A stretch of DNA of 64,000 bases, taken from contig JANQMJ010000018.1 in the NCBI GenBank assembly GCA_028280115.1, positions 1-64,000 on the forward strand. Reading direction: 5' to 3'. Source of the stretch: Parvularculaceae bacterium (GTDB lineage: Bacteria; Pseudomonadota; Alphaproteobacteria; Caulobacterales; Parvularculaceae). The translations under genes were made by a program, and so were the position numbers. Of the stretch, positions 7,735 to 64,000 are shown piece by piece. Below the pieces are notes generated by a model. It had not been told where the DNA came from. It searched no databases and saw only the letters and a list, made by a program, of their open reading frames with translations. Every line of letters starts with the position of its first letter. The first letter of the stretch is position 1.

Positions 7735-7960
7735 ATCAGCAACGCAAAACCGCTCAACCCGCTTTCCCGGCGCCGCGCGCGAAGGCGCGCTATTTATAAT
7801 TTGACCGCATTCGCGGTCGGGCCGGGACCCAGCGAACAGATAATGTCGGGCGAAGCCCGTCTTTTTATGTTGACTGGACCCCGACTTTCGTCGGGGAGGT
7901 CGGGGGAAATGAGCGGGGATATCAATTGTCCCATCCGCAAGCGACTCTGGCGCGCCCGCG
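7735..7960. repeat. intergenic hairpin repeat, family 2
   Basis: The gap between recJ and the DUF3297 gene is repetitive. It starts with CGCTCAACCCG, then a GCGCGCGAAGGCGCGC hairpin, an AT-rich spacer, a CCGCATTCGCGG hairpin, GTCGGGCGAAGCCCG and GGACCCCGACTTTCGTCGGG. A second copy lies at 58478-58612, with partial copies at 12620-12680 and 63690-64000. No gene. Confidence 0.75.
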
Positions 7961-11980: not shown

Positions 11981-12009
11981 GCTTTTGATTGAAATGGTGC
12001 ACACCAATA

Positions 12010-12615
12010 ACAGGAAATAAGAAGGGCGAAATACAACCTCGGGAGGGTATTTCGCCCGCAAACCCGCATTCGGTCGATAGATATCGAACACCTTCGGAAC
12101 GGCCGTATAATGCCTTCCAGCGTCGATGAAGGCCAAGGCAAAAGGAAGGGCGGCCGGTCCTGCGGAAAACGCAAGCGCCGCAATGAAATCAGCAAAAGGC
12201 TTCCTGAGATGCTCATGCGCGAGGGCGGGCGAAGCCCTCGTCTCGCGCGGGCTCTTTGACATTGTGAACATGCTTCCGAACGGCGCGGCTGTCTCTCGCG
12301 CGCTGAACGGGAACGCGGCGCCTGCGCTTATCCCAGCCGTCATCCCGTGCGCGCTGCAGCGTGAAACGCTGCTGCGCTGACACGGGATCGCTTGAAGCAA
12401 AGCTGGCGCATGCGGATGGCGATCCCGGATCGGCAAAGCAGCATTCCATGCTGCCCCGACCGCGAAGGCGGTCAAATGATGATTTGCGCGCATTCGCGCG
12501 CGGGGCATCCGGGATGACGCGAGGCAGTCAAATGGCGCCCCACATTCGGGAATTTTCGGCTTGAAACAGGGAAACTCTCCAAACGCGAAGGGGGTAAATG
12601 GCGCCCCGCTTTTCC
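12010..12615. repeat. composite ~610-bp repeat, copy A (inverted copy at 54319-54935)
   Basis: Three blocks appear here in order: (1) 12010-12311, containing the palindrome TCGATAGATATCGA (12074-12087) and a boxA-like GCTCTTTGACATTGTGAA (from 12251); (2) 12341-12520, a two-module GTCATCCCG...CGGGATGAC unit with an inserted cassette of two small hairpins; (3) 12531-12615, beginning AATGGCGCCCCACATTC. Copy B carries the same three blocks in the same relative order on the other strand. A frame is open through block 1 in both copies, but most differences change residues, so a DNA or RNA element is more likely than a protein gene. Confidence 0.8.
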
Positions 12616-12681
12616 CGGCGCCTGCGCACGCGGGCGCGGGAATGAGCGGAGATATGGATTACGCGATCTGCAACCGACTCT

Positions 12682-12785
12682 AAAGCATGTCTCGTTTAAT
12701 CGGATTCACTCGACATGCTTTAGGTCTTTTTTTTTCGCGTGTCTTTTGCGCAAAACCGGTATCCACTTTTGCGCGACACGCTCTA
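12682..12785. repeat. tandem inverted-repeat element downstream of the monooxygenase gene
   Basis: Two inverted repeats in a row: AAAGCATGTC/GACATGCTTT (12682-12691 and 12712-12721), then GCGTGTC...GACACGC enclosing TTTTGCGCAAAACCGG and ACTTTTGCGC. An uninterrupted T run lies between. Sequences of this kind (AAGTGG-x-x-ACCGGTTTTGCGC on the other strand) are a familiar dispersed intergenic element of alphaproteobacteria, from memory. Its end coincides with the stop of the monooxygenase gene, so it may act as its transcription terminator. The short stretch 12620-12680 before it is a partial family 2 repeat. Confidence 0.65.
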
Positions 12786-14291
12786 GGCCCTTGCGGTCAG
12801 CGGCTTTTCGGCGCCGCTCGGTTCCGCCGAACTCGGCGCGGCATCGAACGCCAAGGCGCGATCGGCCACCGGGGCAAAGCGCAGCCGGTAAATCTCCAAA
12901 AGATAGTTCTGCGGCTGGCGCCACGGCGCGCGCGGGCCCTGCTTGGGCAGCTTGTCGGCGACGCGCACGATATAGCCGGACGAAAACGCCTCGAAAATAT
13001 TGCTCGTTGCGATGTTTTCCGGCGCAACCGGCGTCACCGATTGATAACCGCGCCGGTCCATATAGTTGAGCAGGCGGCAGACATATTCGCTGATGAGATC
13101 GCTGCGCAGGGTCCACGACGCGTTGAGATAGCCGAATATGGACGCCATGTTGGGCGCGCCGGACATCATCACGCCTTTATAGGTGATCGCCTTTCCCGGC
13201 TCGAACCGGCGGCCGTCGACTGTCAGCGCCGCGCCGCCGAGCGGTTCCACCGCCAGGCCGGTCGCCGTCACGATGATGTCGGCCTTGAGTTCTTCGCCCG
13301 ACGTTAGCCGGACGCCGTCTTCGGTGAAACGCTCGATGTGATCGGTGACGACCGAGGCGCGCCCGGTGCGGATCGCCGCGAACAGATCCTCGTCGGGCGT
13401 CAGGCATAGCCGCTGCTCCCAGGGAAAATAGGTCGGCGTGAAATGGGTTTCGACGTCATAGTCGGGCGGCAATTGTTCGCGCATCAGCCTGATCAGTTTT
13501 TGCTTTGAGTTTTTCTTCATCAGCCGCGTGATGGCGAACGAGAACAGCTGAAACAAAATGCGCTCCCAGCGCACCAGACGGTAAGCAAGATCGGTCGGCA
13601 ATAGCCGCTGCAACCTTTTTGCGATCCTGCTTTCCGCCGGCATGGAGAACATATAGGTCGGCGAGCGCTGCAGCATGGTGATGTGCTGCGTCTTGTCGGC
13701 CATGGCGGGGATCAGCGTCACCGCGGTGGCGCCAGAACCGATCACGACCACGCGCTTGTCGGCGTAATCGAGATCTTCCGGCCAGTGCTGCGGGTGAACG
13801 ATCCGGCCCTTATAACGATCCGTGTCGGCAAAGTCGGGCGTATAGCCGGCGTCGTAGCAGTAATAGCCCGAACACATCCACAGAAAGTTGCAGGTCCGTA
13901 AGACCGGCGCGCCGTCATGCAGTGCGGTAACGGTCCAGCGCGCGGTTTGCGACGACCACGACGCCTCTGTGACCAGGTGGCGATAACGGATTTTTTTGTC
14001 GACGCCGTAATCGGTCGCCACGCCGCGCAGATAGTTGAGGATCGACGGACCGTCGGCGATGGCCTTTTTATCGCGCCACGGCCGGAAGGCGTAGCCCAGC
14101 GTGTACATGTCGCTGTCAGAGCGCACGCCGGGGTAGCGGAAAAGATCCCAGGTGCCGCCTGACGCCGCCCTGCCCTCGAGAATGGCGTAGCGTTTTCCGG
14201 GACAGCGTTTTTGCAGATGCACGGCCGCGCCGATCCCGGAAAGACCGGCCCCGACGATGAGGACGTCGAAATGCTCCGGCGGCGGCGCCAT
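12783..14291 (-). CDS. flavin-dependent monooxygenase (FMO/Baeyer-Villiger type)
   Basis: The ATG at 14291 is preceded by AGGAAG and directly starts the flavoprotein fold. The FAD-binding motif is VLIVGAGLSGIGAAVHL; the NADP-binding one is VVVIGSGATAVTL. Between them YKGRIVHPQHWPED matches the F-x-G-x-x-x-H-x-x-x-W/P fingerprint of flavin monooxygenases and Baeyer-Villiger enzymes, which oxygenate ketones, sulfides or amines using NADPH and O2. The C-terminal part fits group-A alkane/ketone-metabolising homologues. The substrate cannot be given. Monocistronic, ending in a dispersed repeat element. Confidence 0.85.
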   Translation of the reverse strand: MAPPPEHFDVLIVGAGLSGIGAAVHLQKRCPGKRYAILEGRAASGGTWDLFRYPGVRSDSDMYTLGYAFRPWRDKKAIADGPSILNYLRGVATDYGVDKKIRYRHLVTEASWSSQTARWTVTALHDGAPVLRTCNFLWMCSGYYCYDAGYTPDFADTDRYKGRIVHPQHWPEDLDYADKRVVVIGSGATAVTLIPAMADKTQHITMLQRSPTYMFSMPAESRIAKRLQRLLPTDLAYRLVRWERILFQLFSFAITRLMKKNSKQKLIRLMREQLPPDYDVETHFTPTYFPWEQRLCLTPDEDLFAAIRTGRASVVTDHIERFTEDGVRLTSGEELKADIIVTATGLAVEPLGGAALTVDGRRFEPGKAITYKGVMMSGAPNMASIFGYLNASWTLRSDLISEYVCRLLNYMDRRGYQSVTPVAPENIATSNIFEAFSSGYIVRVADKLPKQGPRAPWRQPQNYLLEIYRLRFAPVADRALAFDAAPSSAEPSGAEKPLTARA

Positions 14292-50268: not shown

Positions 50269-50317
50269 CGCCGGAAACTAATGCGGCGCTGCGGAAATTG
50301 GAAATGGCCTTGAAATC

Positions 50318-50464
50318 CGTCATCCCGTGCGCTGTGCGGCGTGTAATGCCGCACTGCTGACACGGGATCGTTTAAACAAAGCCTGCGCCGGCGGATGGCG
50401 ATCCCGGATCAGCGATGCATCACCCCGGACTCGATCCGGGGCGCTGCATCGCACCCGGGATGAC
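50318..50464. repeat. intergenic two-module hairpin repeat with inserted cassette
   Basis: Starts GTCATCCCGTGCGCTG and ends ACCCGGGATGACG. Module two contains an extra nested hairpin CCCCGGACTCGATCCGGGG inside its loop. The two modules meet at GGATGGCGATCCCGG. No gene in this gap. Confidence 0.75.
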
Positions 50465-51105: not shown

Positions 51106-51357
51106 CTTTGCCTCTCCTGTCGTGAGTTTTGCCGTGCGGCGGCGACTGACCCCCGCACGATTTCTGAAAATGAGCAATTACAAAGTATTAGAGCGCGAGT
51201 CTGGACCCGCTGGCAAGATCGTCGGCGAAAGCTCTCGCGGCGCCATGGCGGGCGCTGACTATATTCGGCGCGCCGGCCGTGGCAAAAGTAACCCGGCGAG
51301 AGCGCGCAACCCTTGCCCAAGGCGCGCCCGAACATAGCAAGCAGGGATTGCGGCTTC

Positions 51358-52725
51358 ATGACTGCTAAAGGTTCCAGCGCCGACGGCGCCCGCCAGCGCT
51401 GGTCTTCGCGATTCGCCTTTCTCATGGCGACCATCGGCGCCGCCGTCGGGCTGGGCAATCTCTGGCGTTTTCCGTTTCAAACCGGCGAGAACGGCGGCGC
51501 GGCCTTCGTGCTGATCTATCTCCTGTGTGTCGTCTTTATCGCTTATCCGATCCTGATCGGCGAAATCGCCATTGGACGGCGCAAGGGTCTTTCCGCCCTC
51601 GGTTCCATTCGCGAACTGGCGAAAGAGGCCGGACATGCCTCGTTCTGGGCGATCGCCGGCCTGATCGGCATTGCGGCGAGTTATCTCGTGCTGACGACCT
51701 ATAGCGTCGTCGCCGGCCAGATCCTGTCGTTCTCGTTCATGTCCTTCATGGGCGTGTTCGCCGAACGCGAGCCGGACGCGTCGCTGCCGCTTTATAGCGG
51801 CGTCTATCCGCTTTTATGGTTCAGCCTGTTTCTCGGGCTGACCATGCTGGTGGTCGCGCGCGGATTACAGTCGGGCATCGAACGGCTGGTGACGACGCTG
51901 ATGCCGGTGTTTTTCTTCATGCTCGCAGGGCTCAGCGTTTACGCGCTGGCGACCGGCGCCGCCGGCGAAGCGATCGATTATCTCTTCGCGCCGCGCTTTA
52001 GCGAGCTTTCCCCCGAAGTCGTGCTCGCCGCCCTGGGCCAGGCGTTTTACTCGGTCGCGGTCGGCACCGCAGGGATGATCACCTACGGCGCCTATCTCGA
52101 CAAGAAAGAGAGCATCGCCCTTAACAGCGCCTATATCGCCGGCGCGGATACGCTCGTCGCCATCGTCTCCGGGCTGATGATTTTTCCCATCGTCTTTTCC
52201 TCCGCCATCAGCCCTGACGCCGGTATGGGACTGATTTTCGACACGCTGCCGGCGGTTTTCATGTCCATGCCCGCCGGTTCGGTGGTCGGCGGTTTGTTTT
52301 ATTTTCTCGCCTTCATCGCGGCGCTGACCTCGTCGATCATCATGCTGTTGGTCGCGGTCGTTCTTGTGGAGGAATGGCTGGGGCTGAAACGCCTACCCGC
52401 TGTCTTATTACTCGGGGCCATCGCCTGGATCGCCGGGGCCGCGGGACTGTCCGTTGAAGGACTCGCCGAAACCATCGATTACATCGCCGGCAGCATCCTG
52501 TTGCCGCTCGCCGCTCTGCTCGGCGCCGTCTTCGCCGGCTGGATCGTTCCTCGCGCCATGATGCGCGACGAACTGCATAATGCGAGCGAATACACGTTCC
52601 GGTTCTGGCGGTTTTTTATTCGCTACTTTGCACCCGTCGCGGTCTCGATCACGCTGCTTCTCGGCCTTGATGCGAGGTTCAACTTCGGCCTTAACGCCTT
52701 TATCGCCGGACTGACCGGCAGCTGA
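51358..52725 (+). CDS. sodium-dependent transporter (NSS/SNF family)
   Basis: A 455-residue symporter of the neurotransmitter:sodium family with about eleven membrane helices, starting at ATG 51358. TM1 is FAFLMATIGAAVGLGNLWRFPFQTGENGG, including the unwound sodium-binding part, and TM6 is LGQAFYSVAVGTAGMITYGAYL. The substrate of bacterial homologues is usually an amino acid; here unknown. It is followed by a closely related gene on the same strand, a tandem duplication. Confidence 0.9.
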   Translation: MTAKGSSADGARQRWSSRFAFLMATIGAAVGLGNLWRFPFQTGENGGAAFVLIYLLCVVFIAYPILIGEIAIGRRKGLSALGSIRELAKEAGHASFWAIAGLIGIAASYLVLTTYSVVAGQILSFSFMSFMGVFAEREPDASLPLYSGVYPLLWFSLFLGLTMLVVARGLQSGIERLVTTLMPVFFFMLAGLSVYALATGAAGEAIDYLFAPRFSELSPEVVLAALGQAFYSVAVGTAGMITYGAYLDKKESIALNSAYIAGADTLVAIVSGLMIFPIVFSSAISPDAGMGLIFDTLPAVFMSMPAGSVVGGLFYFLAFIAALTSSIIMLLVAVVLVEEWLGLKRLPAVLLLGAIAWIAGAAGLSVEGLAETIDYIAGSILLPLAALLGAVFAGWIVPRAMMRDELHNASEYTFRFWRFFIRYFAPVAVSITLLLGLDARFNFGLNAFIAGLTGS

Positions 52726-52922
52726 GCAAAAAACCTCAATAACAACAAAGCGTTGGGCCGTATTCAGAAGACAGTCGTTAACGCCGACGCACCCTTTACG
52801 CGCCGCCGAAAAGGACGGTTTTTTCTATTCTTGCCCGCCGGCTCATGCCAAAACCCTTGAAAAGGTTCTGGTTTTTCGCCCAGATCGGGCGCGAGGGGAA
52901 CCGTCGACAGGGAGGATCATCC

Positions 52923-54287
52923 ATGGCCGGTGCAACGCCGCAATGGACTTCACGATTTGCATTTCTCATGGCCGCGATCGGTTCGGCGGTCGGACTGGGC
53001 AATCTTTGGCGTTTCCCGTTTCAGACCGGCGAGAACGGCGGCGCGGCCTTCGTCATCGTTTATCTGATCTGCGTCGTTTTCGTCGCCTATCCGATTTTGA
53101 TGGGCGAATTGTCCGTGGGACGCCATAAGGGGCTTTCCGCTGTCGGATCGACGCGTCAACTCGCCAAGGACATCGGCAAGTCGGAAGCCTGGGGGATCGT
53201 CGGCTGGGCCGGCCTTCTCGCAGCATTCACCATCCTGACGACCTACTCCATCATCGCCGGTCAGGTGATCGCCTATGGCGTGATGTCGTTCATGGGGGAA
53301 TTCGCCGGGCGCGTCGCCTCCGACGCGGCCCAGGTCGCGCCGCTTTATAATGACGCAACGCCGCTTCATCCTCTTCTTTGGCATACGGGTTTCATGGCGA
53401 TTACGATCGTGGTCGTCTCCGCCGGCCTTCATGGCGGCATTGAGCGGGTCGTCACCATCCTCATGCCCTTGTTTTTCGTCATGCTGGCCGGACTGTGCGT
53501 TTATGCGCTGGCGACCGGCGCCGCCGGCGAAGCGGTCGCCTATCTCTTTACCCCCGACTTTTCAGCGCTCACGCCGGCGATGGTGCTTGCCGCCCTGGGC
53601 CAGGCGTTTTTCTCCATCGGCGTCGGCGGGGCGATCATGATCACTTACGGTTCATTCCTGTCGAAGGACGAAAATATCGGCAGCAGCGGCGCGATCATCG
53701 CCGGTTCCGACACCATGGTCGCAATCGTCGCCGGCCTGATGATTTTTCCGATCGTTTTCGCCAACGGCCTCGATCCCGCCGCTGGGGCCGGACTCATTTT
53801 CGGCGCCTTGCCGGCTGTGTTCGCGGGCATGCCGGCGGGATCGATCATCGGCGGGTTGTTCTTCTTCCTGGCGTTCATCGCCGCGCTCACCTCGTCGATC
53901 TCGCTGCTGCTCGCCGTCGCCTCCGCCGGCCAGGAGCAGCTCGGCCTGGGCAAAACCCTTTCGGCCGTCATCTTCGGCGCGCTTGCCTGGACCGTCGGCG
54001 CGGCCACGGTGCTGATCTCCGGCCTTGGCGGCTGGGTCGACTTTGTCGGCGGCAGCATTTTCCTGCCCATGGGCGGCTTGCTGATCGCCGTCTTCGCCGG
54101 CTGGGTCGTGCCTCGGGAGATCATGCGCAAGGAGCTTCGCAACACCAATCGCTGGCTGTTCCGTTTCTGGCGGTTTTTCATCCGCTATGCGGCGCCGATC
54201 GCGGTGGCGCTGATCATCGTGCTCGGCGTCGATGAAAAATTCAATTTCGGGCTAAACGCCTTCATCACCGGACTGACGGGGGGCTGA
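52923..54287 (+). CDS. sodium-dependent transporter (NSS/SNF family), paralogue
   Basis: A 454-residue paralogue of the preceding transporter, starting at ATG 52923 after AGGGAGGA. TM1 FAFLMAAIGSAVGLGNLWRFPFQTGENGGAAFV and the end FNFGLNAFITGLTGG mirror its neighbour; LLTTYS and LSALTPAMVLAALGQAFFSIGVGGAIMITYGSFL correspond in place. The main differences are in TM2-TM3 loops and the extracellular region (APLYNDATPLHPLL), suggesting different substrates. The 197 bases between the two hold a possible promoter but no gene. Confidence 0.9.
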   Translation: MAGATPQWTSRFAFLMAAIGSAVGLGNLWRFPFQTGENGGAAFVIVYLICVVFVAYPILMGELSVGRHKGLSAVGSTRQLAKDIGKSEAWGIVGWAGLLAAFTILTTYSIIAGQVIAYGVMSFMGEFAGRVASDAAQVAPLYNDATPLHPLLWHTGFMAITIVVVSAGLHGGIERVVTILMPLFFVMLAGLCVYALATGAAGEAVAYLFTPDFSALTPAMVLAALGQAFFSIGVGGAIMITYGSFLSKDENIGSSGAIIAGSDTMVAIVAGLMIFPIVFANGLDPAAGAGLIFGALPAVFAGMPAGSIIGGLFFFLAFIAALTSSISLLLAVASAGQEQLGLGKTLSAVIFGALAWTVGAATVLISGLGGWVDFVGGSIFLPMGGLLIAVFAGWVVPREIMRKELRNTNRWLFRFWRFFIRYAAPIAVALIIVLGVDEKFNFGLNAFITGLTGG

Positions 54288-54318
54288 GGCCGACGCTGCT
54301 CAACCCGGCAAAGCCGGC

Positions 54319-54935
54319 AAAAGCGGGGCGCCATTGGCCCTCTTCGCGTTTGGAGACTTTCCCGGTTTCAAGCCGAAAATTCCCAAATGTGGGGCGCCAT
54401 TTCGCGACTGCTCCGCGTCATCCCGGACGCCCCGCGCGCGAATGCGCGCGAATCATCATTTGACCGCCTTCGCGGTCGGGACAGCATCTTTGATGATGCA
54501 ATGCTGCCTGCCCCCGACTTGATCGGGGGATCCGGGACCGCCATCGGCCGGCGCCGGCGTTGTTTCAAGCGATCCCGGATCAGCAAAGCAGCATTTCATG
54601 CCGCGCAGCGCACGGGATGACGGCGGCAGTGTGAGGCAGGCGCAGCCTTCCCGTTCAGCGCGCAAGCTATCCCCGCACCGTTGGGAAACAATGTTCACAA
54701 TGTCAAAGAGCATGCGCGGGCGGATGGAAATCCCATCCCTCGCACATGAGCATCTCAGGAGGTCTTTGCGGTGTTTGCGACGTTCCGTTTTTATGGGAGT
54801 CCGTCGCATCGTATTGGCCTTCATCGACGCTGGAAGGGAGTATACGGCCTCCCGGAAGGTGTTCGATATCTATCGACGCAATGCGGGTTTCAAGGCCGAA
54901 TACCCTCCTGGGGTTGTATTCGTTGAGGCAAGTTC
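54319..54935. repeat. composite ~610-bp repeat, copy B (inverted copy of 12010-12615)
   Basis: Same three blocks as copy A on the opposite strand: GGGGCGCCATT...GGGGCGCCATTT (54319-54405), a two-module GTCATCCCG...GGGATGACG unit with inserted cassette and CCCCCGACTTGATCGGGGG (54418-54622), and the block with a boxA-like motif (ATGTTCACAATGTCAAAGAG at 54691-54710 is its complement) and the palindrome TCGATATCTATCGA (54863-54876). Confidence 0.8.
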
Positions 54936-54959: not shown

Positions 54960-55093
54960 ACGTCATCCCGGATGCAACGCAGCATGGAATGCTGCTTTGC
55001 TGATCCGGGATCGCTTGAAACAAACTCGGCGCCGACCGATGGCGATCCCGTGTCGGCAGCGCGTCATTTCACGCCGCGCAGCGCACGGGATGA
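54960..55093. repeat. two-module hairpin repeat
   Basis: CGTCATCCCGGATGCAACGC...GATCCGGGATCGC followed by GATCCCGTGTCGG...GCACGGGATGACG; the two modules are in reverse order compared with the units at 3040 and 50318. Confidence 0.75.
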
Positions 55094-55117
55094 CGCACGA
55101 TATTTTTTCAGCACAGA

Positions 55118-58477: not shown

Positions 58478-58612
58478 GCAAAACCTCTCAACCCGTTTTT
58501 CCGGCGAAAGCCGGAATCCAGCAAATGGATAATGTCGGGCAAAGCCCGGCTTTTTATTTTGACTGGACCCCGACTTTCGTCGGGGAAAGCGGGAATGCGA
58601 TTCGCCCAATCC
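58478..58612. repeat. intergenic hairpin repeat, family 2
   Basis: AACGCAAAACCTCTCAACCCG, TTTCCGGCGAAAGCCGGAA, GTCGGGCAAAGCCCGGC, GGACCCCGACTTTCGTCGGG: the same order as in 7735-7960. No gene in this gap. Confidence 0.75.
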
Positions 58613-63689: not shown

Positions 63690-64000
63690 TCGGGTCCAAC
63701 CAACATAAAAAGACGGGCTTGGCCCGACATTATCCGTTCGCTGGATTCAGCAAACCCTCCATCGTCATTCCGGGGCGCGCCTTTGGCGCGAACCCGGAAT
63801 CCATGGCGCCTTGTTTAAGGCTTGGTCCATGGATCCCGGATCGGCAAAGCAGCATTTCATGCTGCATTGCATCCGGGATGACGGCTGCGATATCCGTCGG
63901 GCGCAGCTTTCGCGCCCCGCGCGCGAAGCGCGCTAACGATTATTCGACCGCCTTCGCGGTCGGGGCGGGGTCCAGCAAGCGGATAAGAACGGGTTGAGCG
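63690..64000. repeat. intergenic hairpin repeats to the window end
   Basis: A reverse-oriented family 2 unit (AAAAAGACGGGCTTGGCCCGA), then two-module units CGTCATTCCGGGGCGC...AACCCGGAAT and GGATCCCGG...ATGCTGCATTGCATCCGGGATGACG, then the GCGCGCGAAGCGCGC and CCGCCTTCGCGG hairpins with an AT-rich spacer. No gene is credible. Confidence 0.75.

Follow-up and report, generated by a model that had tools for sequence, protein, structure and literature searches.

Dispersed copies of a gene transfer agent (GTA) promoter, some with a boxA leader, in a Parvularculaceae genome and its congeners

Two inverted copies and the family to which they belong

The 64,000-nucleotide stretch of Parvularculaceae DNA analysed here (the window) had been reported in a preliminary description to carry a composite element at two places, A and B, on opposite strands and with three blocks in the same order, which raises the question of what kind of sequence has been copied and whether it does anything where it now sits. 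Pairwise alignment of A (12030-12619, plus strand) with B (54920-54313, minus strand) returned 77% identity over 621 aligned columns (E=8.7e-137): both copies are real, and their likeness extends well beyond the short hairpin modules. A repeat search of the window recovered five collinear inverted arms (107 nt at 86%, 77 nt at 79%, 96 nt at 82%, 82 nt at 94% and 90 nt at 92% complementarity), which bear out the common block order. The core of A reaches slightly upstream of 12010, the conserved linker (CAATAA...) beginning near 12000 (Table 1). The boxA holds up as well, matching at 20 of 20 positions in A and 18 of 20 in B, the middle hairpin unit is indeed REP-like, and no transposase lies near either copy, as had been noted. 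Rfam gave no match to the element at gathering level. As for coding on either strand, Pfam gave no match for the long ORFs overlapping A and B, and inspection by eye found no reading frame common to the copies.

Table 1. Features of copies A and B, in window coordinates
Copy	Feature	Position	Strand	Basis
A	Conserved upstream linker CACACCAATAACAGGAAATAAG..., part of the promoter region, about -110	12000..12031	+	Alignment of own copies and congeners
A	GTA-type promoter	12032..12118	+	R1 match, 70.8 bits
A	17-nt operator GTCGATAGATATCGAAC, DnaA-box-like, overlapping the -35 region, same as at the own GTA cluster promoter	12073..12089	+	
A	-10 box TATAAT	12106..12111	+	Sequence read, aligned
A	Leader: GCGTCGATGAAGGC motif and hairpin ahead of boxA	12112..12248	+	
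A	boxA GGGCTCTTTGACATTGTGAA	12249..12268	+	
A	REP-like palindromic modules GTCATCCCG...CGGGATGAC, also alone elsewhere	12337..12524	+	
A	3' block, two AATGGCGCCCC repeats	12530..12616	+	
B	GTA-type promoter	54832..54918	-	R1 match, 65.9 bits
B	Operator GTCGATAGATATCGAAC	54861..54877	-	
B	-10 box TATACT	54839..54844	-	
B	boxA ATGCTCTTTGACATTGTGAA, 18/20, core intact	54694..54713	-	
B	REP-like palindromic modules	54420..54624	-	
B	3' block, two AATGGCGCCCC repeats	54313..54402	-	

Although both copies are real, the element is not confined to two places: it forms a family some 30 strong, built around a promoter of the gene transfer agent (GTA), a domesticated phage (see below). In the own genome (2.99 Mb in 30 contigs), sequence searches gave about 34 matches to the first block and about 46 to the third, the latter including lone hairpin pieces, and copies numbered 32 by a promoter model (R1, see below) and 29 by an HMM of the third block. 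Aligned copies consist of a 5' block some 105 nt long, a boxA leader (in about a third of them), REP-like palindromes, and a 3' block that holds two AATGGCGCCCC repeats, of which the 5' and 3' blocks are conserved whereas the palindromes vary from copy to copy. The palindromes are independently abundant repeats, occurring with or without the promoter element; in the window they lie at 12337-12529, 50317-50429, 54961-55095 and 63803-63966, and several copies have them as their left border. The 3' block is a module of the own lineage. As regards an insertion sequence or MITE, no transposase was seen, and the aligned copies show no clear ends. Some copies are near-identical, and such pairs interrupt the assembly: contigs C16 and C3 end within one shared stretch, from which C30 and C20 appear to carry on, and contigs C29 and C4 start inside a shared 3' block. 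Recombination between A and B could, as first suggested, cause an inversion, but the pair is not special in this respect, since A and B share no exact match longer than 30 nt and some 30 more copies exist. The GTA promoter, the size of the family and the separate existence of the hairpins all escaped the preliminary description because they are visible only in searches of the whole genome and of sister genomes.

Two further repeats were seen in the window. One, at 12635-12793, adjoins A, has weak matches to the Brucella sRNAs CI27/CI408 (32.5 bits against a cut-off of 59.8) and has a 48-nt inverted partner at 2182-2229; the other (GCCGGGACCCAGCGAACAGATAATGTCGGGC...) is dispersed in three copies, 87-92% alike, at 7821-7904, 58510-58593 and 63692-63748.

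The first block and the GTA main cluster

One copy of the element (L071, at G000:C19:56598) ends in TATGATGCTTCCCATGATG, which is the start of the first ORF of the GTA cluster of this genome. The identity of the cluster is confirmed by genes for terminase, HK97 portal, protease, capsid, tail tube and NlpC/P60, together with matches to GTA_TIM (PF13547) and GTA_megatron (NF048004). From own and sister-genome copies we built R1, a sequence-only promoter model of 89 positions, which matched 32 sites in the own genome and, among 23 congeners, gave about 8-31 matches in each of 20, one in G002, and none in G017 or G021. Across 16 genomes of other families it gave a single marginal match (E=0.04). 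In at least six congeners (G003, G009, G014, G016, G022 and G023) an R1 match directly precedes the homologous terminase gene, and in G022 and G004 R1 also precedes DUF2793 genes; the set of downstream proteins used here includes some spurious antisense ORFs. Because the training set of R1 contained the own GTA promoter but none from these six congeners, their matches are independent; by its position in seven genomes, the identity of the first block as the promoter of the GTA main cluster is well supported.

Most copies have no evident gene behind the promoter. In short copies without boxA (L068:2264-2700 and similar), ATGATGAA stands 7-9 nt after the -10 box, as it does at the GTA cluster, which suggests that a leaderless start codon was copied along with the promoter. 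The scarcity of R1 promoters in G002, G017 and G021, compared with their sisters, would be explained if these genomes had lost the GTA or used another operator. The exact 5' pattern had no match in GTDB, and a viral origin was rejected: the operator 20-mer is absent from IMG/VR, and the boxA 18-mer, common there, never occurred with R1 in the 80 loci examined.

The GTA promoter of Caulobacter has a GafY site at -123 to -113 (near -120), an IHF site and a degenerate -35; that genome has about 18 other GafY/IHF promoters, and GafZ acts in antitermination with NusA/E/G (PMC11150451). Like the promoters of the Caulobacter crescentus GafY/IHF/GafZ and Rhodobacter capsulatus GafA systems, the one described here stands upstream of the same GTA cluster, with a far-upstream activator site (putative here) and a degenerate -35, and the Caulobacter regulon likewise has dispersed promoters (about 20); antitermination is part of that system, as is predicted here. 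Unlike in Caulobacter or Rhodobacter, most copies here have no GTA gene behind them, many have a boxA leader, and they sit in a REP mosaic and turn over between species.

Operator and boxA leader

Overlapping the -35 region is a 17-nt box, GTCGATAGATATCGAAC, which occurs at the own GTA promoter and is exact in 28 of 31 own orphans. In sister genomes this operator reads GTGGATAGTTATCCACC (G003), GTMGATACGTATCAACG (G016) or GTGCGTAGTTATCCACG (G022), variants that resemble the DnaA box, TTATCCACA. Over five genomes, 58 of 60 orphans are nearest to the GTA box of their own genome, the operator being uniform within a genome and different between genomes. Such sharing inside one genome could reflect common descent instead of selection; orphans at matching gene positions, few as these are, bear the variant of their own species (L079/L210 beside nuoE, and L082/L203), and an operator that has changed with the species in this way argues for selection.

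GafA of Rhodobacter has a DnaA-like HTH (PMC9638019), and the own genome encodes a 139-aa ORF with PF08299, a DnaA-like HTH domain; a GafA/GafY-like protein of DnaA type is a candidate for binding the operator. A search of the own genome for a DUF6456 (GafZ-like) protein found none. Alignment of the copies brought out a further conserved element upstream, near -110, which may correspond to the Caulobacter GafY site.

A boxA leader is carried by about 12 own copies, among which are A and B, and this class recurs in many congeners in the order promoter, GCGTCGATGAAGGC-like motif, variable stretch, hairpin, and boxA with the core GGCTNTTTGACATYGTGAA. The boxA is near-invariant in sequence and lies 102-130 nt downstream of the promoter match in most class members, own and sister copies alike, on a reading that omits minus-strand loci among L177-L204 (read as plus); a second reading covers both strands. 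The leader hairpin is recurrent with modest covariation (72.6% of cells paired against 67.8% when shuffled, with none of 500 shuffles reaching the score), although sliding by two columns gives 63% and a score nearly as high. Exact matches to the boxA 20-mer were found in eight GTDB contigs, from Parvularculaceae, Marinicaulis (now Hyphococcus) and unclassified Alphaproteobacteria MAGs.

Judged by its sequence, this boxA is a predicted antitermination site that would act via NusB/NusE. It has the core GCTCTTTGA in common with rRNA leaders, as well as an upstream hairpin; in contrast to them, it is tied to the GTA promoter, has no rRNA behind it and continues ACATTGTGAA, whereas the rRNA leaders of the genus read GGGCTCTTTGAAAATTGAATAT. 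Neither an rRNA leader nor 16S sequence was found in the element. An rRNA-leader origin of the boxA was rejected on the difference from the genus leaders and on the lack of a 16S motif near the eight exact GTDB matches.

Genomic sites and competing explanations

Neighbouring genes were called with a simple codon-usage script. Of the 29 own orphans with a gene called on both sides, 17 have convergent neighbours; among the 51 gene pairs of the window, 9 are convergent (binomial p=9e-7; p=0.02 when the excess is measured against gap length). Convergent sites make up 10 of 12 in the boxA class, 9 of 10 tandem sites outside the GTA cluster are co-oriented, and most copies sit at gene 3' ends. A lies between phaC and an FMO-like gene, and B faces a gene of the sodium:neurotransmitter-symporter family; the window holds two tandem paralogous transporter genes at 51313-54287 (62% identical), the second belonging to the SNF sodium symporter family. 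Elsewhere, a ribosomal S4-domain gene (L065:2939-3556) and a PurF-like gene (L076:840-2399) each have an orphan boxA copy directed into their 3' end. R1 had no match within about 1.5 kb of orthologs of A's upstream gene in 22 congeners, or of homologs of B's neighbour in 20, in each case as far as the contig reaches, so that A and B look like gains of the own lineage.

We consider it probable that A and B are orphan GTA-regulon promoters giving non-coding, boxA-equipped transcripts, and we infer that such orphan copies would fire together with the GTA. The GTA activator (GafA- or GafY-like, of DnaA type), once made, would bind the operator GTCGATAGATATCGAAC and bring RNA polymerase to the TATAAT box, just as at the capsid/tail cluster of the GTA. 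The transcript from A or B would be non-coding, with a leader of about 130 nt, a hairpin and then boxA, at which NusB/NusE-type factors would load and render the polymerase resistant to termination, so that transcription would continue across the REP hairpins toward the convergent neighbour gene. Counting against this explanation are the negative search for a GafZ-like protein, the modest covariation of the leader hairpin, operator sharing that descent might account for, and the three congeners with no more than one R1 copy. Whether the neighbours would feel this is a further step that we regard as possible if doubtful: on GTA induction, boxA-protected non-coding transcripts from about 30 sites might enter convergent housekeeping genes in antisense orientation, such as the genes of a PurF-like amidotransferase, a methyltransferase and a ribosomal S4-like protein, and thereby turn the host down or ready DNA for packaging.

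The main rival, somewhat unlikely in our judgement, is a neutral mosaic intergenic repeat in which a fragment captured the GTA promoter and spread, inert, by recombination or by a transposase in trans. Like E. coli BIME, rhizobial RIME and pneumococcal BOX elements, the family is modular, dispersed and intergenic, with palindromic cores; its mosaic build with REP-like palindromes, the apparent gain of A and B, the prevalence of gene 3' ends, the near-identical pairs that break the assembly and the lineage-specific 3' block all favour this explanation, and convergent intergenic gaps are also places where neutral repeats survive, which counts against orphan promoters. The conserved module here, unlike in those elements, is the promoter of a known regulon and is genus-wide. 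An inert repeat fits poorly with a promoter and boxA class kept across the genus without the 3' block, an operator that tracks the GTA promoter of each species, a conserved boxA spacing and the co-orientation at tandem sites.

A second alternative, that some 30 extra operators act as decoys, titrating the GTA activator to set a threshold that restricts GTA production and lysis to rare cells, would make sense of so many identical operators and of the death of GTA producers on particle release (PMC11150451), but a pure decoy needs no conserved -10 box, leader motif or boxA, and we hold it to be improbable. That the copies are remnants of rRNA operons (a leader with boxA plus a trailer) is highly improbable, the shared boxA core notwithstanding, given a promoter that maps to the GTA cluster, a promoter and leader unlike those of rRNA in the genus, and exact boxA matches away from any 16S motif.

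Dispersed GTA-regulon promoters as such are already known, in Caulobacter (PMC11150451); a limited literature search turned up no description of orphan GTA promoters that carry boxA leaders, nor of such promoters having been amplified within a REP mosaic. GTA regulation has so far been studied as the control of particle genes. Orphan promoters that share the GTA operator throughout a genus, a third to half of them with boxA RNA, imply that GTA activation may drive non-coding transcription at many sites, and the orphan copies offer ready target sites for probing both recognition by the activator and the role of the extra transcription.
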